A stretch of 44,795 nucleotides of DNA, taken from positions 1 through 44,795 of the IMG/VR virus record IMGVR_UViG_3300025154_000173. One strand, 5' to 3'. The notes beneath the pieces were generated by a model that worked only from the letters and a program-made list of their open reading frames with translations, did no database searches and was not told where the DNA came from. Each line of letters starts with the position of its first letter. The first letter of the stretch is position 1. A program made the position numbers and the translations under genes. Positions 2,713 to 40,150 of this stretch are shown here, piece after piece. Source of the DNA: a virus.

Positions 2713-2762
2713 AACAGTAGCTGCTAGCTACTAATTTATTAACTTAATATTAGGTGTACAAT

Positions 2763-3020
2763 TTGAATTTATTTGTTAGAAACATTACGCGTAGCGTAAC
2801 TGAACAAGAACTTAAGAACTTGTTCGAAAAACATGGTGCAGTTAACTCCACCAAAATTATCACTGATCATGATACAAAAGTTTCGAAAGGCTACGGCTTT
2901 ATCGAAATGCCTGATGTGGCTGAAGCCCAGGCTGCTATTGAAAACTTAAACGACTATGAGTTCCAGGGTCGCCCGCTTGGTGTAAACGAAGCACGCCCCA
3001 GAGAACCACGTTCTTACTAA
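2763..3020 (+). CDS. RRM-domain RNA-binding protein
   Basis: A single RNA recognition motif fills the 85-residue protein. RNP2 is the N-terminal LNLFVRNI-like strand and RNP1 is KGYGFIEM near residue 40; the second helix contains AQAAIENLN. Such small RRM proteins are known from cyanobacteria and some other bacteria and bind single-stranded RNA. I choose the TTG at 2763, which gives the usual MNLFVRN start; an upstream in-frame GTG at 2754 is itself part of the AGGTG ribosome site. A hairpin-rich leader (2688-2735) precedes it and a strong terminator follows, so it is probably a monocistronic unit. Confidence 0.85.
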   Translation: MNLFVRNITRSVTEQELKNLFEKHGAVNSTKIITDHDTKVSKGYGFIEMPDVAEAQAAIENLNDYEFQGRPLGVNEARPREPRSY

Positions 3021-7355: not shown

Positions 7356-7661
7356 TTGAAATATAAAAGTGATATTCTTAGTAACACTGGTAACTTCCGC
7401 ATCATGACGGAGTTGGAACTTATAGAAAAGCTTGGTAAACAATGGAACGCTAACATAGATGTTTCTGGGAACCATGATGGTGGCATGAATTATCTTTTCG
7501 GTCGCAACCTATCTACACTAAAAATACGAGATTCCCATCGTGGGTTTTCAGTCTGTAATGATAAGACTAGTGACTGGCAGTGGGAAATAAGCCTAGACGT
7601 GGTAGTTGAGGATACATTTAGTTTAATAGGTTACAAAAATTACTCTAGTATTTTATCGTGA
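7356..7661 (+). CDS. Paralogue family member 1 (FRxKTxxE...MDYLxGx...YxxYSxIL)
   Basis: 101 residues with a TTG start 6 bases after a GGAAC box. It shares with four neighbours an N-terminal F-R-x-x-T-E-x-E-x-x-x-x-x-G-x-x-W segment, a central M-N/D-Y-L-F/L-G segment, a W-x-I/L-S strand, and the terminal Y-K-N-Y-S-S-I-L. This is the most divergent of the five (MNYLFGRN). No function is known to me. It ends in TGA, overlapping the GTG of the phosphatase gene. Confidence 0.7.
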   Translation: MKYKSDILSNTGNFRIMTELELIEKLGKQWNANIDVSGNHDGGMNYLFGRNLSTLKIRDSHRGFSVCNDKTSDWQWEISLDVVVEDTFSLIGYKNYSSILS

Positions 7662-8195: not shown

Positions 8196-8555
8196 ATGTC
8201 AAAGATAGCATACATTCTAGATAATAAAGAAAACTTTCGGTTTAAAACAGAGCAGGAATTTAAGGAAGACTACGGACCATCCTGGAGAAAGGCTCTTCCT
8301 GCTACTTGGCCCACTACTATGGATTATTTATTTAGCCAAGAACTTAATACGTTCCGTACGGACAACGCAGGAACGGAGTCTTTTTGGATAACTGATCATA
8401 TGCAGGGCGGGAATCGTTCTTGGAAAATAAATGTAGAGATGCTTCTCGAAAAGGGTGTATTTAGAACCGTAGACATTTCTTTACGCGGTGCTCCAGTTAT
8501 AGATACAACAAAGTTAACAGGTTATCGTGATTATTCATCAATATTAAAATTATGA
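8196..8555 (+). CDS. Paralogue family member 2
   Basis: 119 residues behind an AAAGGAAA ribosome site. Family blocks: FRFKTEQEFKEDYGPSW, then MDYLFSQELN, then WKINVEML, then GYRDYSSILKL. About 35 residues longer than member 3, with an insert between the central strand and the C-terminal block. It ends in TGA overlapping the next gene's ATG, so members 2 and 3 are coupled. Confidence 0.72.
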   Translation: MSKIAYILDNKENFRFKTEQEFKEDYGPSWRKALPATWPTTMDYLFSQELNTFRTDNAGTESFWITDHMQGGNRSWKINVEMLLEKGVFRTVDISLRGAPVIDTTKLTGYRDYSSILKL

Positions 8556-8815
8556 CTATAGAAGAAGTAAGAGCAAACCCAAACAAATTTAGATTTAAGA
8601 CAGAAGCTGAATTTATAACGGAGTTTGGCACAGACTGGAAAGACAGAGTACCATATAAGTGGAACTCAGATGGCGATATGGATTACCTGTTAGGAAAATC
8701 TTATTCCGAGGTATCTACAACAGGGTGGCTTATTAGTACTGATATGCTTATCCAAATAGGCACAAATCCCGAAGTATTAGCAGACTATAGAACCTATGGA
8801 AATATTTTACATTAA
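8552..8815 (+). CDS. Paralogue family member 3
   Basis: 87 residues. Blocks: FRFKTEAEFITEFGTDW, MDYLLGKS, WLISTDML and YRTYGNILH. This is the most compact version and so probably shows the minimal domain. Its TAA overlaps the ATG of the zinc-ribbon protein. Confidence 0.72.
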   Translation: MTIEEVRANPNKFRFKTEAEFITEFGTDWKDRVPYKWNSDGDMDYLLGKSYSEVSTTGWLISTDMLIQIGTNPEVLADYRTYGNILH

Positions 8816-9069
8816 TGAAAAAATTTAAACCCAGACCTGTAGGCTACCAAGAATATTGGACTGCCAAAGGCGAGTATGGTCTAGAACGGCTTCGCCGATA
8901 TAAAAAACGTCTAGACAAACGTAAACTAAAAGGTGGATGCCCTCGATGCCATCGTAACCCAAAAGAAGATCCTCATACGTGCCCATATGCTGAGGATATG
9001 CGGGGCGACCATGTAACTTTGTGCAGATGCTGTTATGACTGTAGGCATGAGTGTGCAATGGATATCTGA
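8815..9069 (+). CDS. Cysteine-rich zinc-ribbon protein
   Basis: 84 residues. Residues 1-40 are basic and helical; the rest has CPRCH, HTCPYAED and CRCCYDCRHEC, eight or more cysteines and histidines that could bind two zinc ions. Likely a nucleic-acid or protein adaptor, but no specific family is assigned. Start overlaps the previous stop; ends in TGA. Confidence 0.65.
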   Translation: MKKFKPRPVGYQEYWTAKGEYGLERLRRYKKRLDKRKLKGGCPRCHRNPKEDPHTCPYAEDMRGDHVTLCRCCYDCRHECAMDI

Positions 9070-9078
9070 TTTTAATTG

Positions 9079-9133
9079 TGGAGGTAGCTCAGTGGTAGAG
9101 CACTTAGTCGGAGAGTTCGATTCTTCCCCTCCA
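9079..9133 (+). pseudogene. tRNA remnant lacking the anticodon arm
   Basis: TGGAGG and CCTCCA form a 6-bp acceptor-like stem around a normal D arm (GCTC/GAGC) and a T-loop TTCGATT on a damaged stem. Between D and T arms only about 9 bases remain, so the anticodon stem-loop is missing. It looks like a tRNA gene after an internal deletion. Confidence 0.6.
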
Positions 9134-9146
9134 TACTTAATTTTTT

Positions 9147-9171
9147 TGGGTATAAGAATGATAGTAAATTT
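9147..9171 (+). promoter_or_regulatory. Phage-type promoter motif copy 1
   Basis: Contains TGGGTATAAGAATGATAG, closely matching the copy at 18426. It stands 26 bases before the paralogue 4 start codon. Confidence 0.6.
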
Positions 9172-9196
9172 TAGATTAATTATAAAGGAGTACATT

Positions 9197-9511
9197 ATGC
9201 TAGACTGCTCTGGTGGGCTAGATAAGGATCTCGTAAAACGTGGCCCGCTTCGTTTTAAAACAGCGGCGGAGTTCGAACAGGACTATGGGTCTACCTGGAG
9301 ACAGGACGTGCCAGGTCCATATTGTTGGGTATGTAGTATGGATAGCTTGCTGGGAAAACATTTAAGCGTATTTGGAGTTACAGATTTAGGAGATAGCTAT
9401 GGAGTAGCAGGTTGGAATATCTCTGAAAGCATGCTTACTCGCACCGAAATACACCCAGCACAGGTAGAGTCTTTGCCAAATTACAAAGATTACTCCACAA
9501 TTTTAAAATAA
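9197..9511 (+). CDS. Paralogue family member 4
   Basis: 104 residues from ATG 9197, chosen because AAGGAG lies 8 bases upstream; upstream in-frame starts would overlap the tRNA remnant. Blocks: LRFKTAAEFEQDYGSTWR, MDSLLGKHLS, WNISESML, YKDYSTILK. It is the first gene behind a phage-type promoter motif. It ends in TAA. Confidence 0.72.
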   Translation: MLDCSGGLDKDLVKRGPLRFKTAAEFEQDYGSTWRQDVPGPYCWVCSMDSLLGKHLSVFGVTDLGDSYGVAGWNISESMLTRTEIHPAQVESLPNYKDYSTILK

Positions 9512-9525
9512 ATGGAACAAGTAAT

Positions 9526-9813
9526 ATGATTAAATTTAAAGACATCTTAGAACATCCAGAACTATATAGATTCAAAACTCAAGAGGAACTAATAGCTGAG
9601 TATGGTGTTCACCACTGGCGCAGCTCCGTACTGGGCCAATGGATAGAGGATATGGATTACTTACTCGGTCAGCAAGTCTCGGAACATCTCATAAAAAGTA
9701 GTGGACCTAGCGATGTTCAGATAGACCGTACTTGGAACTCAGGAATAGAAGCATTTACACTAAACACATCATCTCTATTAAACTATAGAGATTATTCAAC
9801 AATCCTAAAATAA
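9526..9813 (+). CDS. Paralogue family member 5
   Basis: 95 residues. Blocks: YRFKTQEELIAEYGVHHWR, MDYLLGQQVS, FTLNTSSLL, YRDYSTILK. It follows member 4 by 14 bases and precedes a highly charged small protein, all probably on one transcript from the 9147 motif to the terminator at 10207. Confidence 0.72.
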   Translation: MIKFKDILEHPELYRFKTQEELIAEYGVHHWRSSVLGQWIEDMDYLLGQQVSEHLIKSSGPSDVQIDRTWNSGIEAFTLNTSSLLNYRDYSTILK

Positions 9814-10186: not shown

Positions 10187-10206
10187 TAGCTCTATTTTTT
10201 TTTACA

Positions 10207-10232
10207 GGGCTGGTTGATCCAGCCCAATTTTT
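10207..10232 (+). terminator. Intrinsic terminator before tRNA-Tyr
   Basis: GGGCTGG pairs with CCAGCCC around TTGAT and is followed by AATTTTT. Confidence 0.88.
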
Positions 10233-10234
10233 AT

Positions 10235-10317
10235 GCAAGTATCGAATAGCGGCAATTTCCGCTGCCTGTAGAGCAGCCGTCTAATAAACTTCGGTGGTTC
10301 GAGTCCATCTACTTGCA
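10235..10317 (+). tRNA. tRNA-Tyr (anticodon GTA)
   Basis: Acceptor GCAAGTA/TACTTGC, D stem GAA/TTC with a 10-base loop, anticodon stem GCTGC/GCAGC with loop CTGTAGA, T stem GGTGG/CCATC, discriminator A. The long variable region (about 15 bases) is normal for bacterial tRNA-Tyr. Confidence 0.88.
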
Positions 10318-10320
10318 CTT

Positions 10321-10472
10321 ATCCTCGCTCCAGAACACGAACCTTCGGTTCGAAGACTTTACAGAGATCGCTGTTCGACAGGTGATGCTGAAATAATCCC
10401 CGATGATATTGGGTGTAAATATTAAACTGCATCATTCTAGGCTGTAACCTAGACGAGGATTTTATTTTTTTT
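10321..10472 (+). ncRNA. Structured RNA candidate A (array unit 1)
   Basis: Closed by ATCCTCG/CGAGGAT (10321-10327 with 10454-10460) and followed by a T-rich tail. Inside are CGAACC/GGTTCG (10338-10352), TGATGC/GCATCA (10383-10388 with 10429-10434) and CTAGG/CCTAG (10437-10452), whose loop includes the GCTGTAAC motif shared with units 2 and 3. It starts 3 bases after tRNA-Tyr, and no credible reading frame is present. Function unknown. Confidence 0.6.
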
Positions 10473-10590
10473 ATGTACCATGCATGCCTTGGTAAATCTC
10501 TGAGGATTGGGTGCACGTTGCTGTAACACAGGCGATTGTTAACTGCTAGCGAGTTAACTTGTAAAGTGTTATATGGTGCATAGAGTTTTT
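10471..10590 (+). ncRNA. Structured RNA candidate B (array unit 2)
   Basis: Closed by TTATGTACCA (10471-10480) with TGGTGCATAG (10574-10583), about 10 pairs including wobbles, then a T tract. A 7-bp hairpin GTTAACT/AGTTAAC (10538-10558) with a GCTAGCG loop lies near the 3' side. GCTGTAAC occurs at 10520-10527, 46 bases after the start of the TGTACCA strand, the same offset as in unit 3. No T-arm, so not a tRNA. Confidence 0.6.
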
Positions 10591-10720
10591 ATGTATCATG
10601 CAGGACCTATGCAAAGTAGGTACGGGCATTTGGACGCTGTAACATAAACCGAGTGGTTTTTTTCATAGACGTATTCTATTGAATTACACACCTAAGGGTT
10701 GTTATATGATACATATATTT
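10590..10720 (+). ncRNA. Structured RNA candidate C (array unit 3)
   Basis: Closed by the perfect 10-bp pair TATGTATCAT (10590-10599) and ATGATACATA (10706-10715), then a T tract. Inside are ACCTA/TAGGT (10605-10621), ATAGA/TCTAT (near 10667-10681) and GCTGTAAC at 10636-10643. Layout and motif spacing match unit 2, suggesting a duplicated RNA. Confidence 0.6.
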
Positions 10721-10839
10721 TTGGGTGGCGAAGACGTGTCTTTGATCGGGCTATGTTAGTAGTCATCCAGGGTGAAAAGCAGCCCGAGCCGCTAGTTGAT
10801 CTCTAGTAGACAGGGCAGCCCAGTAACCCAAATTTTTTT
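10719..10839 (+). ncRNA. Structured RNA candidate D (array unit 4)
   Basis: TTTGGGT pairs with ACCCAAA and is followed by seven T. An inner 7-bp stem TCGGGCT/AGCCCGA (10746-10752 with 10791-10797) and an AGAC/GTCT hairpin are visible. It lacks the GCTGTAAC motif of units 1-3, so it may be a different RNA or the terminator-bearing end of the array. Confidence 0.55.
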
Positions 10840-10857
10840 AATAAACAAAGGTACATC

Positions 10858-10989
10858 ATGAAAACAGTAAAAAGTATGAAAACTGAAGAAGTAATAAGAG
10901 TAACCGATGAAGAAGCTAATAAATTAGTTTCAGCAAAAACACATCAATATGTTTCAAAGTCTGAGTATAAAAAGTTAAAAAAAGGTTAA
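10858..10989 (+). CDS. Small hypothetical protein (43 aa)
   Basis: ATG 10858 to TAA 10987-10989, behind an AAAGGT box. The product is short and lysine-rich (MKTVKSMKTEEVIRV start, KKLKKG end). It is the first gene after the RNA array and is followed after 2 bases by the next gene, which argues for translation. Function unknown. Confidence 0.55.
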   Translation: MKTVKSMKTEEVIRVTDEEANKLVSAKTHQYVSKSEYKKLKKG

Positions 10990-12372: not shown

Positions 12373-12643
12373 AGAACGGAGATGCTTGGTAAACGTTTAT
12401 CAGATTACTTACTCAGATTTACATATCAATGTTGTATTTAGAAAAGTAACTCCTTTAAAACATAAACTATGGATTCGTCAATGGCTAATCGCAAATAATT
12501 TTAGCTTTAGAGATAAACCATATGTATGGAAAGAGGGAGTTTCTACTTCTACAAAACAAATTGGTTTGGGTCCTTGGTCAAAAAAACCTTGGGCAAATGG
12601 AAAGAATGCACATAGCACTAAAGCAACTTGGAATCAAAAATAA
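12347..12643 (+). CDS. Hypothetical basic protein
   Basis: 98 residues starting MTKVHGTPEERRC. Tryptophan- and lysine-rich towards the C-terminus (GPWSKKPWANGKNAH). No recognised domain. Four bases separate its TAA from the cold-shock gene ATG. Confidence 0.6.
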   Translation: MTKVHGTPEERRCLVNVYQITYSDLHINVVFRKVTPLKHKLWIRQWLIANNFSFRDKPYVWKEGVSTSTKQIGLGPWSKKPWANGKNAHSTKATWNQK

Positions 12644-12646
12644 AAA

Positions 12647-12844
12647 ATGATCGGGAAGGTTAGATGGTTTAACCCTGCATGGGGGTATGGTTTTATTACG
12701 TCTGGAAAGACTGATTACTTCGTGTTCTATAAAGCAATTAAAATGAAAGGTTTTCGGAAGCTGGAGCCTGGCCAGAAAGTTTCATTTAAAATTAAAGTAT
12801 ATCAAGGACATAAACAAGCTAATCAAGTTAAACAGTACAAATGA
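12647..12844 (+). CDS. Cold-shock-domain protein
   Basis: 65 residues, one cold-shock OB fold. GKVRWFNPAWGYGFIT matches the family's GxVKWFNxxKGYGFI RNP1 strand, and TDYFVFYKAI corresponds to the usual D-x-F-V-H RNP2, with the histidine replaced by tyrosine. EPGQKVSFKI matches the fourth strand. Such proteins bind single-stranded RNA or DNA. Its TGA overlaps the ATG of the ClpP-like gene. Confidence 0.85.
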   Translation: MIGKVRWFNPAWGYGFITSGKTDYFVFYKAIKMKGFRKLEPGQKVSFKIKVYQGHKQANQVKQYK

Positions 12845-13443
12845 TAAAAAATCAAGAGATCACTATTGAAGAATTAACACTTCCTCAAAAAAAAGTAGAT
12901 TCCGCACCCATTCCTTTTTTACAGCTTACTGAAGATATAGACATAAAAAATAGGAAGATATACGTTACAAATATTGACGTGTATACTCCTGCATTTATTC
13001 AACAAAGAGCAGATGTGATATATCAAATGTCTGGAGACGATACTACACCACTCACGCTATCAATTAGCAGCTTTGGTGGAGATGCATATGCAATGTTCGG
13101 AATAGTTGATGTTATGAAACTACTTCCCAGCAAAGTAAATACTCTCGGAGTGGGAACTGCACAATCTGCAGCGGCCACTCTTTTAGTCGCGGGCACAGGA
13201 CAGAGAACTATCACAGAGAATACTTTTGTGATGATTCATCAAATTAGCACCTGGTTAGGTGGACAGGCTGATGATATCGCAGTCGAGGCAAAGCATACTA
13301 AGGAGTTACAGACAAAACTGTATAAACTTCTAGCAAGCAAATCTAAAAAACCTGCAGATTTCTGGAAAAAACAAACGAAATCTAATTTATACTTACCAGC
13401 AGAAAAATGCTTAGAGTATGGTTTAGTAGATGTTGTCATTTAA
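12841..13443 (+). CDS. ClpP-like serine protease
   Basis: 200 residues. The ClpP/crotonase fold is clear: SISSFGGDAYAMFGIVD matches the substrate-cleft strand, GTAQSAAATLLVAGT carries the catalytic serine, and FVMIHQ carries the catalytic histidine. The acidic member is probably in the helix after LASKSKK. Length matches ClpP. Phage ClpP-like proteins often act in head maturation or replace host ClpP; none of the neighbours here is a capsid gene, so the role is open. ATGA overlap with the cold-shock gene. Confidence 0.85.
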   Translation: MIKNQEITIEELTLPQKKVDSAPIPFLQLTEDIDIKNRKIYVTNIDVYTPAFIQQRADVIYQMSGDDTTPLTLSISSFGGDAYAMFGIVDVMKLLPSKVNTLGVGTAQSAAATLLVAGTGQRTITENTFVMIHQISTWLGGQADDIAVEAKHTKELQTKLYKLLASKSKKPADFWKKQTKSNLYLPAEKCLEYGLVDVVI

Positions 13444-26193: not shown

Positions 26194-26362
26194 TAGAATC
26201 TCCATAGGTTAGTATACTAATATACGCTAAAAGCTGTGGGTAGTAAAGTATCTGCGCATTATCACAGCCATCACAGGACACTTTCCAGCGTAACCTGCAA
26301 ATCTTCTTTGCGGTAATTGTCCCTTTTTTACATTTATCGCAAGATATATGATCTTCGTTCAT
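26177..26362 (-). CDS. Small zinc-ribbon protein
   Basis: 61 residues with C-D-K-C-K-K-G near residue 8 and C-D-G-C-D near residue 30, two C-x-x-C knuckles of a zinc ribbon. Its ATG overlaps the stop of the RNA polymerase gene (TAATG), so it is co-translated with it. A transcription accessory role would fit the position but is only inference. Confidence 0.65.
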   Translation of the reverse strand: MNEDHISCDKCKKGTITAKKICRLRWKVSCDGCDNAQILYYPQLLAYISILTYGDSNGKIF

Positions 26363-29300
26363 TAATAAAACTCCCCTTTCTCGAAATCTGTGTTTCTTCC
26401 AAAGTTCTCGCCGTACAAATACGCAGGCACTGGATCTTTGCCTTTAATATTTGCATATTGTCCTTTCGAAGCACCGATGGTTAAACCTGCTTTAACACGA
26501 TTAGTGGTTATACGAGTCATCCAGTCATCTGAATCAGTGTTTAAGGTGTCTATTGATTTAAAGTAAGGTTTATAGGTTATTAACTCTAGCCCATCTTTTT
26601 TACGTTTTCTATTTACATTATCAATGTAGGATATGCTAACCTTATCGCCCCGATAGGCACCTGAGTCGTCAGGGGCGGTTGTTATTTCTGCATTATCAGA
26701 TATTCCACGTAAAACAGTTTCAAAAGTTTTATCGTAAAACTGACCTTCGTAAACTTTACCTAACTCTTTTACTATATGTTGTTGAGCTGCTAAGTGTGTA
26801 GTAAGTTCTCCAAGTTCTTGTGGTTTTACAACACCGTCTGATAATGGATCGCCCTGTTTAACTCTCTGACCTATCGTAACAACTGGTGTACGTCCTGGTG
26901 CAATTACATAGTTTTTTGTGTTAACTTTAACAAAGTACCCACCAGTTACATTCTTTGTAATCTCTCCAACTAGTCCGTCTTCTTCTGCAAGTGTTGCTTT
27001 TCCGCCTAACTTTTCTGGAACTTTAAGTAACTGCTCTATTCTAGGAAAACCTGCAGCGATTCCACCTCCACCTAAAGCACTTCCGCCTGAGTGAAAAGTT
27101 TTCATGGTTAACTGGGTAGAGCGTTCTGTAACAGCCTGTGCTTCACTTACACCAACATTTTCCCCTACAGGTGCAAGTTGTCCGTTTGGAAGAAGTCCGT
27201 AACACATTTGACAAACGCCTTCAACTGAATGACATGTCAGCGGAGAACGTACTTTGAGGGTAACCAGTCCTTTTTGTTTAGCTTTTTGGATAACTATGTT
27301 GTCGACAATGTCATTACGTTTTCCTATACCTGCTATACTGTGTAGCAAAGCACGATCCATAACATTCTTATCATTTATTTCAAACTCTAAACCTTCGTCA
27401 GTTCCGCAATCTATCTCGATTACTAGTAAGCGTCTATTTACATTTAACAGAGATTTATTTAGTGCACCTGACTCTTGTGTATTTACCGCACGATCCACAG
27501 TACCTTTACGTACTGCATACAGTGAGTTCCAGTAAGAAGCTGTGTCGAGTCCTTCGCCGTAAGATTTTAGTACTGGTATTTCTAACGGTGCCCCGTTAAT
27601 ATCTGTAAGAACACCAGGCATAGAAAGAATTTGTCTAATGGAATCTTTTTTACTGAATGATCCAGACGCGGCCATTTTACCTAAATTGTTTTCACTTTTT
27701 TCAAGAAGTACGTTTTGAGCATCTTGTACCTTGAGTGTTAATGTGTTTAGGGCCTCAATTCTCTTATCACCTTTTAGTTTATTTATGGCTGGAAGTTCTG
27801 CCTTTAACAGTCTGTCTCTGTATCCTTTATCTCCGATGAAATCCGTGATAGAAATTGTATGACCTTTAAGGTAAGAATAAGTAGCTCCCAAATTTTTCCA
27901 TGTGTTGATTACATTAGGAAAGTGCTGAGGCTGGTCTTTGCCAATTTCAGTTAATAGTTTTTCTGCAGTTTTAGAAGTTAAAACTCTTGTGTAATCTCTA
28001 TATTTATCTGGAAGATCAGAATTAATCATATACTGACCAATGGTCATAGGTTTTCCATTAAGCTTAAACTCTTCTGTCCATTTGAGTCCAGACTGTTTTG
28101 CCTCATCTATAGATTTAAAACTCTTACCAGACTTACTAGTAGTTTTGCTAAGTTCCCACAAACCAAAAATATAATCTTTAGTTAAGTCAGGCATTAACTG
28201 ATTATCGCCGTGCTTGAATAATATTTTACTTGGCATCATGTTTTTAGCTTCTTCTACAGCTTCACGACTAATAGGCACCATCATACTCATTGTATCACCA
28301 TCAAAGTCAGCATTAAACCCTTTAATAATAAGTGGGTTTAGCCGTATAGACTTACCCTTCATCAACACTGGATTAAATGCTTGTACAGAATGTTTATGCA
28401 AACTTGGCGCCCTGTTTAGTATAATAGGACGAGTTTTTATAACTTCACTAAGTGCATTTTTGGCGATTGGACTTTCTTCATCGTAATATTTCTTTGCATC
28501 AGTTACTTTTATACCAGACTGTTTCATCTCTCTCATTATAAACGGTTTATACATAGTATATGCCATGTCAATAGGTACGCCTACTTGGTCTAACCCTAAA
28601 TCGGGTTCTACTGTAATTGTAGAACGTCCAGAAAGATCTTGTGGTTTAGTCCAAAGAACTCCCTGTATCAAACCTGATTTCATTTGTCCAAGTTCTTTAA
28701 TAAAACCTTTATACTTGTCTTTTGAAAAAGTCATTGGGTCGGTGAAACCTTGTAAAGCTTTAACAGAGTTATATAAAGCAACTTGGCTTTCAACTTTGTC
28801 TTTATCGCTTAACTCGGAGTACATACTCTTAAGACTCTGATTTATCAAACCTACGTCACGATAATGTTTGTTAATATCACTAACCATTAAATCACCAGAC
28901 GGCAATGGATATATAGTTCTGAACTGTGGTGGAACAACTGGTACTTTTGACATAGTATAAGCATCTGCTGCTTTCATGTCTAAGTCTTTAAGTGCAAGCA
29001 TGTATTTTAATTTCGTGTTTAATTTATTTACATTAGTAGGAGGAGCTGTTTTTAACTCTGCCTTTAAAGTTTTTATTTGCGCGTTTACGTCAATGTTGTT
29101 AAGACCTGCTATAAGTGCAATTACTCCTGTTTTAGAATTTAATTCTTTTTTACCGTGCAGTACATTTTCAAAATCTGCTTCTGTTAGATTTAGGGCTTTC
29201 ATAATTGCGTCTTCATACATTGGATTAGGAATACGTTCTACTAGATCTAAGTGTGACCAGTTAGTTCCTTTTACTCCACCTGTAATAACAGGATCAAACA

Positions 29301-32300
29301 ACCCACCTTTACGGGTAGCAAGATTTTTACCTATAAGCATTGCGCCTGGATCAGTGAGTTCCCCTGCGGACATCTTCGTTACATCAGCATCGGTTAAAGG
29401 AAAAATTCGTAAGTTGTTTCCTTTCTTCTCAACATTTATTCCAGATCCTTTTAAGTATGCAGTCATTTTTTCAAATACAAAGTTACGATTTGGCTTTCCA
29501 GGAGGAAGTCCAAACTGCAAATCTCTCCAGTACTCATCATTTTTTCTACCTTTTACTTCTGCCATTTCACGTAGATTTGTTTTAGCTCCGTGAGATAGGT
29601 ACGAATAAGCATCTAATATTCCAATCTTTTGAACCCCTTTTCCAGTAGGCTGTTCATCTGTATCATAAGAACCAAATGAGTGCACACCTTGTTTCTTCTT
29701 AACAATGTGTCTAAGTTTCATAATATATTGTTTACCTACAAAGATAGGAGTCTCAATTGGAATCCCTGTCTTACCATCTACGAGGGTTTCATTTGCCTCA
29801 AGTCCATTAGCTTTTAAATCGTCATAAACTTGTTTTGCTGAATCTATTTCTGGTTGTTGAAAATTATTTACAACATAGGTTTTCCCTTGCTTCTCTGCTA
29901 TTTTCCCAGCAGCTGTTTCTAGTAGTTGTCCAATATTCATACGACCTGGTACACCTTCAGGAGATAATAAAATATCAATAGGCTTACCATTGGCTCTATG
30001 TGGAGCATCCGCATCAGGAATTAATTTAGTAATAATAGATTTATTACCATAACGTCCTGCAATTTTATCTCCCTCTTTTAATGGATGCTTTGCTTTGATG
30101 TATATATCTACATTTCTGCCAACGACGCGTACATCTGTTACAACGCCTGGATCTTCTTCATCCCAACGAGTTACATTTTTAGAATAGTTATTAAAGGTAT
30201 ACTTATCTAGTTTCTTTAAGGTCTGTTCAATGTCATCCATTTCTTTTTCGATAAGCAGTGCACAGACTATTTCATCTGGATGAATAGTTTCTCCTACTTT
30301 TATAATTCCTTTATCATCCAGCTTATTAAAGTTCTCTTGAGACATGAGATCAGGAAACCAAGCATTAAACTTACGTTTGTCGAACACCGTTAGCTTAGGA
30401 GAATAATAGACGTTAATTCTATGCAACATCGTGTGTGCCATGCGTTGTGCAGCGCTCTCCGTCATTACAGCGCCGTCCTCAAAGTTATAACCTTTGTAGG
30501 ACATGTATGCAACATCTAAATTTTTACCTAATGCAAGAGTTTGATTGTCCGAGTAATTATTATCCGCGATAAAAGATTCAGGTACTACTGAATCTCCAGC
30601 TTTTACTAAAACGTTAGATTGTAAATACCCATCTTGATTTAATGGAAAGTTATTATAGAGTCCGACTTTTTTGGTTTTACCTTCGTCGGTTTTTATTTCA
30701 ACGTAGTTGTCATCTACCTTAGTAACGATACCAGTTGCTCCAGCACGTTGGTTAAGAAATGCTCCCATTACGTGTTCATAGGTAGAATTTTTATCGCGGT
30801 ACACCTGAACAAGCGGAGCTTCTTTTTCATCAATGGCTAACGCTTGGGTAATCATTCTGGCTCCAGTGGCTGCACGGTTTCCCTGAGTACTGTGCATGAA
30901 AGGCACTAAATTTGCTTGGTATGAAAACATACTTCGTGGAGATCTTAAATAATACTTAACTTCATCTTTGGGAAATTCTTTTGATTCCCCTTTATACATA
31001 CTCTTTATACTATCATATCTAGGCATTACATTTTTAGCTTCGTCCCTTACGTACTGGTCAGGGAATCCAATTATGTTTTCAAAAAATTGAATCGGAGTGA
31101 ACCAGTGTATTTTTCCTGTCAAATCAAATACAGGAGTTACAAGGTCATTGCCAGACTTTCTTACTTCCGAAGATAACCCAACAGTAATTCCTACTTTTAA
31201 AGATTCTGGGGTGCTCAAAGGGTCAAGAAATCCAAGGTGGGTAGGTTGTATATCTCTCGCATCTGTAGTAATAGCATGTGAACTTTGAATACCGCCTGTA
31301 CCCATAGGAGTAGTTTTACGCCACTCGGCTGCGATTGTAACAGGGTTAGTTTGAGGAGGAGTAGTAGATAAGTCTCCTACAGTAAAGAAGCGCTTAATTG
31401 GTTCTCCAAAAGTAGCTGCGGAAATAACTTCACGAACTTGATCTTTAAGACCTAAAGTTCGCTCTAATTTCTTTTTGATCTGTGGGGCGAGTTTGTCAAA
31501 GTAACTTACAAGTAAATCATCGGTAGAAAACACACGTTTATAAACTAGTGAATCGCGCTCATCTGCTAAACCTTCCCCTCGGTTAATTGCAAGTAATTTT
31601 TTACTGGCGGCTAACATTGCAGGTCCGTTCGCGCTGCTGAAAGATTCACCTAGGGTTAGTTTGGTTGTGTCTGGGTCGACCTCTGTGCCTTCATTAAAAT
31701 ACTTTTGTAATCCAGATATTACTTCTTTGTAGTCTTTAGGGTCCTTGTTATAAAGTTTCTTGTAAATACTCGTCATTTCAGATACTTCAGTATTTAAAGC
31801 ACCTTTTTTATTCAGTTCTAGGAGCTCATCTCCCCAAGCTGTACGTATCTCTGCATCAGGTGTACCAATGGTATTAAGCAAAGTCCACAAACGATATTTA
31901 CGGTTCTCAAACATTATAACAAAATGCTGGTTATTTATATCTAACTGCATTTTAAAATTTTGACCTTTGGACAAGTTAAATTCGGATTCAAGTTCACCAT
32001 TACGTTTTATTCTAGAATAAATACCAGACTTTCTACGAATTTGGTTTACAGTTTGGTACTCATTACCATCGATTATCGTAGTAAAGCGATTTGTAATCTT
32101 AGGAATATTGCCAATTTTAACATTTTTAGCGCTGCTTAGTTGTCTCCCAGACTCTATATCTACGATATTAAAGTCGGCAATGATTGGATTTTGCCACGAT
32201 TTTCTATCAAGTTTTACTTCTTTTTGCTCTGGAAAGTTCATATCATCCAAAGTATCATCGAATCGTAGATTAGACATAATCATTCGTCTTCCTTGATTCT

Positions 32301-32385
32301 CCAAAGGAAATACAGATTTAATCGAGGTTACGAGAGCATCTTGTAGTTGGGTATTTTGTATTTTTTGACTTAAGCCACTATCCAT
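26362..32385 (-). CDS. rpoBC: Single-chain beta-beta' DNA-dependent RNA polymerase
   Basis: 2007 residues in one frame. The beta part (about 1-1000) has IQPTHLGFLDPLSTPES near 378, GYNFEDGAVMTES near 634, GRYGNKSIITK near 780, the GVPGRMNIGQLLE block, and MKLRHIVKKKQGVHS near 892. The beta' part (about 1000-2007) has KGGLFDPV near 1028, SGRSTITVEPDLGLDQVG, LNRAPSLHKHSVQAF, the catalytic NADFDGDTMSM near 1360, CHSVEGVCQMCYG near 1723 and TQLTMKTFHSGG near 1765. All three magnesium-binding aspartates are intact. The beta' N-terminal zinc finger is not seen, and no alpha, omega or sigma gene is visible in this window. Bacterial beta-beta' fusions are known in Helicobacter and Wolbachia; jumbo phiKZ-like phages have split subunits instead. 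First gene of its operon, behind a sigma70-like promoter and GGAG. Confidence 0.93.
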   Translation of the reverse strand: MDSGLSQKIQNTQLQDALVTSIKSVFPLENQGRRMIMSNLRFDDTLDDMNFPEQKEVKLDRKSWQNPIIADFNIVDIESGRQLSSAKNVKIGNIPKITNRFTTIIDGNEYQTVNQIRRKSGIYSRIKRNGELESEFNLSKGQNFKMQLDINNQHFVIMFENRKYRLWTLLNTIGTPDAEIRTAWGDELLELNKKGALNTEVSEMTSIYKKLYNKDPKDYKEVISGLQKYFNEGTEVDPDTTKLTLGESFSSANGPAMLAASKKLLAINRGEGLADERDSLVYKRVFSTDDLLVSYFDKLAPQIKKKLERTLGLKDQVREVISAATFGEPIKRFFTVGDLSTTPPQTNPVTIAAEWRKTTPMGTGGIQSSHAITTDARDIQPTHLGFLDPLSTPESLKVGITVGLSSEVRKSGNDLVTPVFDLTGKIHWFTPIQFFENIIGFPDQYVRDEAKNVMPRYDSIKSMYKGESKEFPKDEVKYYLRSPRSMFSYQANLVPFMHSTQGNRAATGARMITQALAIDEKEAPLVQVYRDKNSTYEHVMGAFLNQRAGATGIVTKVDDNYVEIKTDEGKTKKVGLYNNFPLNQDGYLQSNVLVKAGDSVVPESFIADNNYSDNQTLALGKNLDVAYMSYKGYNFEDGAVMTESAAQRMAHTMLHRINVYYSPKLTVFDKRKFNAWFPDLMSQENFNKLDDKGIIKVGETIHPDEIVCALLIEKEMDDIEQTLKKLDKYTFNNYSKNVTRWDEEDPGVVTDVRVVGRNVDIYIKAKHPLKEGDKIAGRYGNKSIITKLIPDADAPHRANGKPIDILLSPEGVPGRMNIGQLLETAAGKIAEKQGKTYVVNNFQQPEIDSAKQVYDDLKANGLEANETLVDGKTGIPIETPIFVGKQYIMKLRHIVKKKQGVHSFGSYDTDEQPTGKGVQKIGILDAYSYLSHGAKTNLREMAEVKGRKNDEYWRDLQFGLPPGKPNRNFVFEKMTAYLKGSGINVEKKGNNLRIFPLTDADVTKMSAGELTDPGAMLIGKNLATRKGGLFDPVITGGVKGTNWSHLDLVERIPNPMYEDAIMKALNLTEADFENVLHGKKELNSKTGVIALIAGLNNIDVNAQIKTLKAELKTAPPTNVNKLNTKLKYMLALKDLDMKAADAYTMSKVPVVPPQFRTIYPLPSGDLMVSDINKHYRDVGLINQSLKSMYSELSDKDKVESQVALYNSVKALQGFTDPMTFSKDKYKGFIKELGQMKSGLIQGVLWTKPQDLSGRSTITVEPDLGLDQVGVPIDMAYTMYKPFIMREMKQSGIKVTDAKKYYDEESPIAKNALSEVIKTRPIILNRAPSLHKHSVQAFNPVLMKGKSIRLNPLIIKGFNADFDGDTMSMMVPISREAVEEAKNMMPSKILFKHGDNQLMPDLTKDYIFGLWELSKTTSKSGKSFKSIDEAKQSGLKWTEEFKLNGKPMTIGQYMINSDLPDKYRDYTRVLTSKTAEKLLTEIGKDQPQHFPNVINTWKNLGATYSYLKGHTISITDFIGDKGYRDRLLKAELPAINKLKGDKRIEALNTLTLKVQDAQNVLLEKSENNLGKMAASGSFSKKDSIRQILSMPGVLTDINGAPLEIPVLKSYGEGLDTASYWNSLYAVRKGTVDRAVNTQESGALNKSLLNVNRRLLVIEIDCGTDEGLEFEINDKNVMDRALLHSIAGIGKRNDIVDNIVIQKAKQKGLVTLKVRSPLTCHSVEGVCQMCYGLLPNGQLAPVGENVGVSEAQAVTERSTQLTMKTFHSGGSALGGGGIAAGFPRIEQLLKVPEKLGGKATLAEEDGLVGEITKNVTGGYFVKVNTKNYVIAPGRTPVVTIGQRVKQGDPLSDGVVKPQELGELTTHLAAQQHIVKELGKVYEGQFYDKTFETVLRGISDNAEITTAPDDSGAYRGDKVSISYIDNVNRKRKKDGLELITYKPYFKSIDTLNTDSDDWMTRITTNRVKAGLTIGASKGQYANIKGKDPVPAYLYGENFGRNTDFEKGEFY

Positions 32386-36599: not shown

Positions 36600-36749
36600 A
36601 ATTTTGCAGAAAAAGTATATAAGATTATTATACTACCAGAATGAAACGTTCTGGGATTTAATTTATTAACGTGCCCCCGAAAACAATAAGAAACTTGAGG
36701 ACAGTGCCTACCATGGCATAAACGCCAAAAGGATCACATGTGCAAAATT
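36600..36749 (+). ncRNA. Candidate retron msr-msd RNA
   Basis: AATTTTGCA (36600-36608) and TGCAAAATT (36741-36749) form a perfect 9-bp a1/a2 pair that encloses 132 bases just upstream of the reverse transcriptase. Inside, AGTATA/TATACT and CCAGAA/TTCTGG make two consecutive hairpins as in an msr, followed by a less structured G/C-rich stretch with TGCC/GGCA. The branching guanosine and msd limits cannot be fixed by eye. Confidence 0.6.
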
Positions 36750-36796: not shown

Positions 36797-37690
36797 TTGA
36801 CAATTTATGATTTAACAGGATTTTCAAAAACAGTGGTAGATGAAGTAGCCAATAATATAGAAAATTATTACATGTCATTTCCTATAAAAAAGGCTAGTGG
36901 TAAACTTCGATGGATAGATGCTCCACAAGAGCCCCTAAAAGAAATTCAGAGTAATATTCTAAAAAACTTAGTATACAAATTTAGGGCACATCCGTGTGCT
37001 TTTGGATTTATCAAAGGTAAAAGCGTGAGAGATGGTGCAGCGATGCACGTACAAAGTAAAGTACTTCTATGTGTAGATGTTTCAAATTTCTTCGGCTCTA
37101 TCAAAGTTAATGAAGTCTTTAGGTTGCTTACATACCTATTGAATAATTGTAAAGATCCCATACCTTATACTAAGGAAGAACTTGAAATACTAACAGCCTT
37201 GTTAACATACAAAGGTGGCTTACCGCAGGGTTCTCCTGCAAGTCCAGCACTTGCCAACATGTTCTGTATGAAATTAGATCAGCATATGTACAATCTCGCA
37301 AAGATAAATAACTTGCGCTATACACGATACGCAGATGATATCAGTTTTAGCAGCAAAAATTTTGACTTCATGATGTTTACTATTCTCCCAGACATTAATA
37401 AGGAATTAATAACATGGGGGTTTAAGATGAATCCGAATAAGACCAGGATACTAAGACCTCACAGAAGAATGATAGTGACTGGCGTAGTTGTTAATAGCAG
37501 ACTAGGCACCCCTAAATGGGTGTGGAAGAACTTAAGAGCAAGATTACACAATTTACTGGTACAGACGGGTAGTTTATCTACAGCTGAGTATCAAAAACTC
37601 CGAGGCCAAATTGAATGGATAAGAACATTACATCACAAGCGTGGCGAACAATTACTAGCAGCGCTTGGGAAGATAACTTTAAAGAATTAA
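36797..37690 (+). CDS. Retron-type reverse transcriptase
   Basis: 297 residues from a TTG at 36797. Motifs in order: RWIDAPQEPLKEIQ (domain 1), FGFIKGKSVRDGAAMH (the N-A-x-x-H-like retron segment), LLCVDVSNFFGSI (catalytic Asp), GGLPQGSPASPALANM, YTRYADDISFS (catalytic YADD), GFKMNPNKTR and MIVTGVVVN, the VTG triplet typical of retrons. A candidate msr-msd lies upstream. Retrons are usually bacterial anti-phage systems; one in a phage may serve competition or be a passenger. Length is near the retron norm. Confidence 0.88.
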   Translation: MTIYDLTGFSKTVVDEVANNIENYYMSFPIKKASGKLRWIDAPQEPLKEIQSNILKNLVYKFRAHPCAFGFIKGKSVRDGAAMHVQSKVLLCVDVSNFFGSIKVNEVFRLLTYLLNNCKDPIPYTKEELEILTALLTYKGGLPQGSPASPALANMFCMKLDQHMYNLAKINNLRYTRYADDISFSSKNFDFMMFTILPDINKELITWGFKMNPNKTRILRPHRRMIVTGVVVNSRLGTPKWVWKNLRARLHNLLVQTGSLSTAEYQKLRGQIEWIRTLHHKRGEQLLAALGKITLKN

Positions 37691-39570: not shown

Positions 39571-40150
39571 TAAGAAGATACAAGCGAACTATGAAATAGC
39601 ACTTGCAACTCCTGAACTATTTGGGGCACAACTTAACAATGAATATAGAAAACTGAGAAACTCGAAATCTGACAAATGGAAACGACTTGGAAAGTTACCT
39701 GTACGGATCTATGGATCTGGAGATTACATTCCTGGTCACTTGAAATTCTTAAATATTTTAAACTTTAAATTCTACCTAATAAGCAAATCTCTAACTTCCC
39801 CGCTTATGGAGAACCAATTAAATGAGTTACTTAAATTGGTTCTCCATAAGCGGGGAAGTTAGAGATTTGATGAAAAAAATCTAAAACATTACGCACACGC
39901 TGTTAAGTTCTTTGGGAAGGATAGAATAACATTTGCTTTCACAGGGAAGCCAAAAGAGTTCGAAGTCCTGAAAGAAAAATTTAACATCTTTTTTAATACT
40001 AGCGATAAAAAGCTAGATAAGATTTATACTAGAAAATTTAAAGAACAGTGTCCTTGCGACTCAGGTGTACTCGCATCAAAGGAGGCTTGCTCACATTGTA
40101 ATAAATGTTGGCGGTCTAGCCTGACTTCTGGTCACACATGGAACACTTAA
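39524..40150 (+). CDS. Gp88-like protein, exon 2, with in-frame TAG
   Basis: 208 codons plus TAA, starting NYCYVENLERIYKAYSKK. PVRIYGSGDYIPGHLKFLN and FYLISKSLT match the phage Gp88 family's V-R-I-x-x-S-G-D and Y-x-x-S-x-S strands, and CPCDSGVL...CSHCNKCWRSS supplies a C-terminal cysteine cluster. A TAG stands in frame at 39860-39862 inside the right arm of a 36-bp inverted repeat; FDEKNLKHY follows in the same frame. Spliced and suppressed, the protein has 236 residues. Gp88 function is unknown. Confidence 0.75.
39784..39869. repeat. 36-bp perfect inverted repeat inside the Gp88-like exon
   Basis: 39784-39819 and 39834-39869 are exact reverse complements (36 of 36), separated by 14 bases. 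The left arm fits the protein family sequence (KSLTSPLMENQ); the right arm introduces the in-frame TAG. It would form a very stable RNA hairpin. Origin by template switching, a mobile palindrome, or assembly error cannot be told apart here. Confidence 0.9.

Follow-up and report, generated by a model that had tools for sequence, protein, structure and literature searches.

The question raised by this locus is what fills the 539-nt gap (positions 10319 to 10857) between a tRNA-Tyr gene and a small open reading frame (ORF) in an uncultured phage. The window, i.e., the whole stretch of DNA that was analyzed, comprises the 44,795 nt of virus record IMGVR_UViG_3300025154_000173 (~44.8 kb) and represents a fragment of the genome of a large uncultured phage. 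It encodes a single-chain β-β′ RNA polymerase, a portal protein, and a ClpP-like protease, and at least 12 tRNA genes lie within its first 10.3 kb (ARAGORN and Rfam). In the polymerase, the β and β′ regions are fused in one 2007-aa ORF (26362 to 32385, minus strand), and at least 80 viral contigs encode relatives of it. The closest contigs by polymerase (57 to 61% identity) include two records of ~205 and ~210 kb, here termed G001 and G004, whose tRNA clusters hold some 30 tRNAs and a tmRNA. The array that occupies the gap is flanked by the following features:

10207 to 10230, plus strand: terminator-like hairpin with a T run, upstream of tRNA-Tyr (consensus scan)
10235 to 10318, plus strand: tRNA-Tyr(gta) without encoded CCA, directly 5′ of the array (ARAGORN; Rfam tRNA, 43.6 bits)
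10858 to 10986, plus strand: 43-aa ORF (MKTVKSMKTEEVIRVTDEEANKLV...), 3′ of the array, synteny anchor (tblastn)
12841 to 13443, plus strand: gene of the ClpP-like protease, a marker 3′ of the array that also lies near the tRNA cluster in relatives

The hairpin at 10207 to 10230 would separate a unit made up of tRNA-Tyr and the array from the preceding gene. The window further encodes an RRM-like small protein (2754 to 3020, judged from sequence) and a cold-shock protein (12647 to 12844). Just upstream of the array lie four consecutive small paralogous ORFs (8196 to 9813) of the type RFKTE.EF..YG..W...DYLLG...DY..ILK, with a possible fifth paralogue at 7356 to 7661; the one that was searched (9526 to 9813) matched no PHROG or Pfam family. 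A near-perfect 86-nt palindrome (90.7% self-complementary) is located at 39784 to 39869 in a 677-nt spacer. Positions 36797 to 37690 encode a retron-type reverse transcriptase (PADLOC retron RT models, E values down to 1e-67), just upstream of which the inverted repeat AATTTTGCA/TGCAAAATT (36600 to 36749) may mark an msr-msd noncoding RNA. An assignment of the array itself as a retron noncoding RNA was rejected, as this reverse transcriptase has its own candidate inverted repeat and lies 26 kb from the array.

Four closed-stem units between tRNA-Tyr and the 43-aa ORF

The gap is filled by four consecutive noncoding units, U1 to U4, each closed by the pairing of its own ends:

10321 to 10460, plus strand: U1, end stem 10321 to 10327/10454 to 10460 (AUCCUCG/CGAGGAU, 7 bp), T-rich tract 10460 to 10472; several hairpins inside, of which the 3′ hairpin (CUAGG-CUGUAA-CCUAG) adjoins the closing stem
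10473 to 10581, plus strand: U2, end stem AUGUACCAU/AUGGUGCAU (9 bp), T tract 10586 to 10590
10591 to 10714, plus strand: U3, end stem AUGUAUCAU/AUGAUACAU (9 bp), T run 10718 to 10722
10720 to 10832, plus strand: U4, end stem 10720 to 10726/10826 to 10832 (UUUGGGU/ACCCAAA, 7 bp), T tract 10833 to 10839

A scan for closed stems next to a T run returned these four nonoverlapping units, which cover 496 of the 539 bases of the gap. When the gap was replaced by dinucleotide shuffles (n = 500), the numbers of cases with zero, one, two, and three units were 236, 230, 32, and 2, respectively, and four units were never obtained. The four consecutive closed-stem units with T tracts noticed in the initial annotation were thus borne out, with stems of 7 to 9 bp. 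The same scan found no such units on the opposite strand of the gap, and the other spacers of the tRNA region of the window, like most spacers of the relatives, contain none or one. Folding of each unit was better than that of its own shuffles, with z-scores from −2.0 to −2.8. For U4, the most stable predicted fold (−40.0 kcal/mol) has another pairing in place of the end stem; a fold that keeps the stem reaches −35.7 kcal/mol. No pairing joins the two ends of the array as a whole.

U2 and U3 have a paired shell in common

The score of the local alignment between U2 and U3 was reached by none of 1,000 shuffles, and none of the other unit pairs among U1 to U4 rose convincingly above chance by the same comparison; no sequence common to all four units was found. 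U2 and U3 have ATGTAYCATGCA, GCTGTAACA, and TGTTATATG in common and can be divided into corresponding parts:

U2: P1, 10473 to 10481/10573 to 10581; P2, 10487 to 10492/10500 to 10505; GCUGUAACA, 10520 to 10528; P3, 10523 to 10528/10567 to 10572; variable core, 10529 to 10566
U3: P1, 10591 to 10599/10706 to 10714; P2, 10605 to 10610/10616 to 10621; GCUGUAACA, 10636 to 10644; P3, 10639 to 10644/10700 to 10705; variable core, 10645 to 10699

The structure present in both units consists of the 9-bp helix P1, the 6-bp hairpin P2, and the helix P3 (GUAACA/UGUUAU), which stacks directly on P1 at its 3′ strand. The likeness resides in this shell, i.e., in the segment that ends with GCUGUAACA on the 5′ side and the one that starts at UGUUAU on the 3′ side (0 of 1,000 shuffles for each), and the enclosed cores of 38 and 55 nt are unrelated, with 777 of 1,000 shuffles scoring as well. 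All 21 shell pairs are standard in both units; seven of them vary, four on both sides, and controls with slid partners gave only 21 to 55% pairing. A shuffle control reached this pair conservation in 26 of 500 cases, a modest result that reflects the comparison of two sequences only. The minimum-energy fold of U2 includes the P1/P3 shell, and in U3 the fold with P3 costs 2.4 kcal/mol relative to the best fold. Since all 21 pairs are kept through change, changes occur on both sides, and sliding destroys the pairing, the data argue for selection on RNA structure after the duplication; the covariation comes from two paralogues, because no homologue was found outside the window. Their sequences identify U2 and U3 as paralogues that have diverged from each other, members of a small RNA family absent from the databases searched. 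The restriction of similarity to the shell and the pairs changed on both sides therefore support the earlier proposal that two or more units arose by duplication within one small RNA family. The offset of GCTGTAAC from the closing stem, which had been given as 46 bases in both, is alike but not identical (47 in U2, from 10473 to 10520, versus 45 in U3, from 10591 to 10636).

U1 and U4 follow the same plan of closed stem and T tract as U2 and U3 but have no sequence in common with them. GCTGTAAC does occur in U1 to U3, as initially noted, but the copy in U1 is placed elsewhere, in the loop of the 3′ hairpin adjoining the closing stem. Because sharing of an 8-mer is at chance level (U1 and U2, 62 of 400 shuffles; U1 and U3, 106 of 400), this copy is no evidence of family membership. 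The array appears best described as four units, two of them demonstrably kin.

Searches for homologues

Rfam searches of positions 10190 to 10870 at E values up to 5 returned tRNAs only and no match for U1 to U4, in agreement with the initial annotation, which recognized no known class. In a blastn search against annotated phages, the array region matched by its tRNA-Tyr only. A covariance model built from U2 and U3 (R1) was run on 81 related records, 86 further loci, and the pattern hits and found nothing credible; altogether, neither ~160 records and loci from relatives nor the pattern scans yielded a U2/U3 homologue, in collections that may leave out records very near the window's own genome. 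Several candidates were discarded as chance matches, namely, those of a shell-only pattern in viral and genome contigs, which had no closing stem (2 to 4 bp), three related matches of the pattern ATGTAYCATGCA...GCTGTAAC in apparent antisense coding sequence, and short blastn matches of the array in 40 relative records. Relatives suggested by the upstream 119-aa protein were false friends (a long repetitive ORF), and the downstream 91-aa protein as a query yielded none. With respect to conserved structure in related phages, on which the initial annotation had made its reading depend, the outcome is mixed: U2 and U3 were not found there, but a syntenic array of the same anatomy is present in G004.

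A syntenic array with permuted tRNAs in a related phage

The 43-aa ORF at 10858 to 10986 has a homologue in G004 (43% identity over 42 aa; tblastn, E value about 1e-8). G004 is the one relative found with the same downstream ORF, and there, too, a tandem closed-stem array directly precedes it:

L091 13603 to 12038, minus strand: array of G004 (IMGVR_UViG_3300038361_000164), eight units of 87 to 141 nt

The G004 units are composed of an outer 6-bp helix, an internal loop (CUAU/GAUUU), an inner 7-bp helix, and CUUCCUUCUA, followed by a variable core. Their outer stem has changed on both sides (GUUUGG/CCAAAC, GAAAGG/CCUUUC, and GUCUGG/CUAGAC), and their inner helix differs in nearly every unit while keeping seven of seven pairs in seven of the eight; swapping the partners between units left a mean of 3.8 pairs. 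At least four T follow six of the eight units. At default settings, ARAGORN recognized three of the cores as tRNAs when the units were doubled, which allows for circular permutation, but not in linear form. They correspond to Gln(ttg), Glu(ttc), and a tRNA with an 8-base anticodon loop and have the 3′ half first, then a short loop (UUCG in two of them) and the 5′ half, the molecule being opened in the anticodon loop. Two units also scored with the Rfam YrlA model (43.2 and 42.3 bits; E values, 8e-8 and 1.4e-7), below its 69-bit cutoff. Since most control genomes also contain matches to this model, presumably at tandem tRNAs, the scores carry less weight. Two long stretches within the same array (L091 ~13390 to 13130 and ~12740 to 12470, minus strand) have similar ends, CTTTTACTAGAYCGTTTAATA ... 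TTTTAGTAGTAA, and diverged middles and gave no Rfam match. Position and plan, but not sequence, are common to the arrays of G004 and the window, and replacement by an unrelated RNA cassette could have occurred.

Shell motifs and further RNAs in relatives

The shell motif of G004, GGCUAU-N7-CUUCCUUCUA, was found in 95 stretches of phage contigs with the scan pattern GGCTATN{6,8}CTTCCTTCTA (loci L200 to L279). Among the 80 stretches listed there are 122 copies, often two to five in tandem and many near tRNA genes; by a strict test, 14 of the 122 listed copies have a matching 3′ arm before GATTT or GACTT. The motif may be a phage RNA element that is widespread but not represented in Rfam; some of the matches may be due to chance. 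A reading of this motif as Ro60/Y RNA was rejected, as TROVE is uncommon among the phages that carry it (1 of 47).

A further closed-stem RNA, F_B, is common to G001 and G004, where it ends a run of tRNA-like genes. Its shells are identical at 41 of 47 and 28 of 36 positions (87 and 78%) and its core at 24 of 61 (39%). The atypical tRNA-like genes that precede F_B were missed by ARAGORN and are syntenic in G001 and G004 (L089 ~12800 to 13050; L092 ~12400 to 12700, minus strand). Separately, a spacer RNA candidate of ~265 nt between tRNA-Leu(taa) and tRNA-Gln(ttg) (L089 6680 to 6960; L092 2352 to 2629, minus strand) is kept in both genomes, with 79% identity over 157 nt and the ends GAAAAGACCTAT/ATAGGTCTTTTC; it had no Rfam match. 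A conserved paired shell around a diverged core thus occurs in three cases in this clade, i.e., in U2/U3, the eight G004 units, and F_B, which supports the view that the array of the window belongs to a broader class of modular tRNA-cluster-linked RNAs, defined by anatomy and position without proven common descent.

Discussion

We hold with about even confidence that the array would represent tRNA-linked small noncoding RNA genes of the phage, with a constant shell and a variable core as seen in U2/U3. A different role, that of a cis-acting leader made up of structured elements in tandem, either riboswitch-like or attenuators, by which the 43-aa ORF and later genes would be controlled, would suit the location of the array directly 5′ of a same-strand ORF (10858) and the tandem copies U2 and U3, as in tandem riboswitches. 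It is nevertheless unlikely, given that the array contains no local intrinsic terminator, consists of four different units with T tracts, matches no riboswitch family in Rfam, and has tRNA-containing units at the same place in G004. Fortuitous stems in an AT-rich spacer with one local duplication would fit the moderate z-scores of folding and the lack of homologues found; that chance alone made the array is very improbable, however, as four tiling units arose in none of 500 shuffles and the similarity of U2 and U3 is confined to a paired shell with all pairs kept.

Both remaining alternatives draw on G004. Decay of a G004-like array into degenerate, highly derived, or permuted tRNA genes is suggested by the synteny with the permuted tRNAs and by U1, in which a hairpin directly adjoins the 3′ strand of the 7-bp closing stem, in the manner of the acceptor and T arm of a tRNA. 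We consider such an origin rather improbable: U1 to U4 gave no linear tRNA call at default settings, doubling them produced weak calls only, at a lowered threshold and as for other RNAs, no T-loop consensus is present, and compensating changes keep the U2/U3 pairs. Closed stems, T-tract ends, and modular cores are traits of Y RNAs, so that U1 to U4 might be bound via the closed stem by a Ro60 (TROVE) protein of phage or host. TROVE proteins are reported from a subset of jumbo phages (PMC7824862), a Listeria phage has been proposed to carry candidate Y RNAs near a gene resembling Rsr (PMC12282133), TROVE genes were found in 3 of 45 records searched, and the syntenic G004 array scores with YrlA (43 bits, E value 8e-8, under the 69-bit cutoff). 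Against this stand the lack of a YrlA match for U1 to U4 at E values up to 5, the lack of a TROVE gene in the window and in G004, the occurrence of the G004 shell motif mostly in phages without TROVE, and the matching of the YrlA model in most control genomes, which make Ro60 binding a rather remote prospect as well.

For tRNA-linked small RNA genes, the simplest reading is cotranscription and processing, as a terminator-like hairpin precedes tRNA-Tyr and promoter-like sites in the array region were not above chance. The array would probably be cotranscribed with tRNA-Tyr and then released as separate RNAs, and the initial suggestion that the units are perhaps processed with the tRNA is compatible with this. 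Paired RNA ends protect from exonucleases, and those of the released RNAs would do the same. The shell of U2/U3 (P1, P2, the GCUGUAACA strand, and P3) would be constant and the core free to change; its conservation suggests one binding partner, and the shell would most likely stabilize the RNA and be recognized by a single RNA-binding protein or processing enzyme of phage or host, candidates being the RRM-like protein (2754 to 3020) and the cold-shock protein (12647 to 12844). The cores would serve as interchangeable effector parts. In the relative with the same downstream ORF, where an array of the same plan has a different shell and some cores appear as permuted tRNAs, these cores are probably tRNA mimics, decoys, or substrates for tRNA-binding enzymes, and those of the window phage are perhaps structured decoys. 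Given the tRNA mimics in the syntenic array, the role that we consider most likely is to decoy tRNA-acting enzymes or to feed them, and we extend it to the window's own cores with low confidence.

More speculatively, the phage clade may keep a cassette array in its tRNA cluster, with a shell recognized by one protein and exchangeable cores, some of them permuted tRNAs in the relative, the version in the window having a new shell (U2/U3) and non-tRNA cores; we regard this as possible but doubtful. If true, the cassette array would add a new type of RNA system to those of viruses, providing tRNA mimicry or a decoy for tRNA-targeting host defenses. We conclude that the array is real, that it includes a new small RNA family with two members, and that a wider class of modular RNAs is plausible in this setting. 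The usual view of phage tRNA clusters is that they consist of tRNAs and spacer. If the spacers encode modular arrays of RNAs with paired ends, some with permuted tRNAs, phages would possess RNA tools in addition to tRNAs and tmRNA, with host tRNA nucleases or RNA quality control as possible targets.

Comparison with known RNAs

None of U1 to U4 qualifies as a Y RNA, tRNA, or tmRNA. By anatomy, Y RNAs are the closest known kind: like YrlA (Rfam RF02553), a small RNA closed by its own ends, the units have end stems (7 to 9 bp; 0 of 500 shuffles) and modular cores, and a permuted tRNA-like module occurs in the G004 array. Unlike YrlA, U1 to U4 have no recognizable tRNA-like module; ARAGORN found none in doubled U2 and U3 and, at a lowered threshold, weak ones in doubled U1 and U4, of a kind that also arises for other RNAs. 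The YrlA covariance model had no match in 10190 to 10870 at E values up to 5, and its sole weak match in the window lies at tRNA genes (2001 to 2074). No TROVE/Ro60 gene is present in the window, a fragment of the phage genome, or in G004. The three records with TROVE (Ro60) genes over the cutoff (L184, L185, and L186 in G075, G084, and G080) are relatives as judged by polymerase or ClpP, and the TROVE gene of G075 lies next to repeated sequences of the type GGGCCGG/CACGCCC.

A cloverleaf, anticodon, and T arm were not detected in U1 to U4, for which linear calls at default settings were negative. Circularly permuted tRNA genes are found in some algae and archaea. The three G004 cores resemble them in having the 3′ half before the 5′ half and being opened in the anticodon loop, whereas the window's units hold no recognizable tRNA, so that the likeness is that of G004 only. 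The tmRNA of G004 (RF00023) lies on the ClpP side of its tRNA cluster, near the place of the array, but the window has no tmRNA match and the ends of its whole array do not pair; an assignment as tmRNA was rejected for want of a tRNA-like domain and a tag reading frame (ARAGORN and Rfam). A search of the available literature on permuted tRNAs or introns in phages and on T4 stable RNAs found no matching paper. The tRNA cluster of phage T4 contains the stable RNAs C and D, single RNAs of unknown function. Like these, the units of the array would be small stable non-tRNA RNAs beside phage tRNA genes; by description, RNAs C and D differ in being single, whereas the window has tandem paralogues with a common shell.
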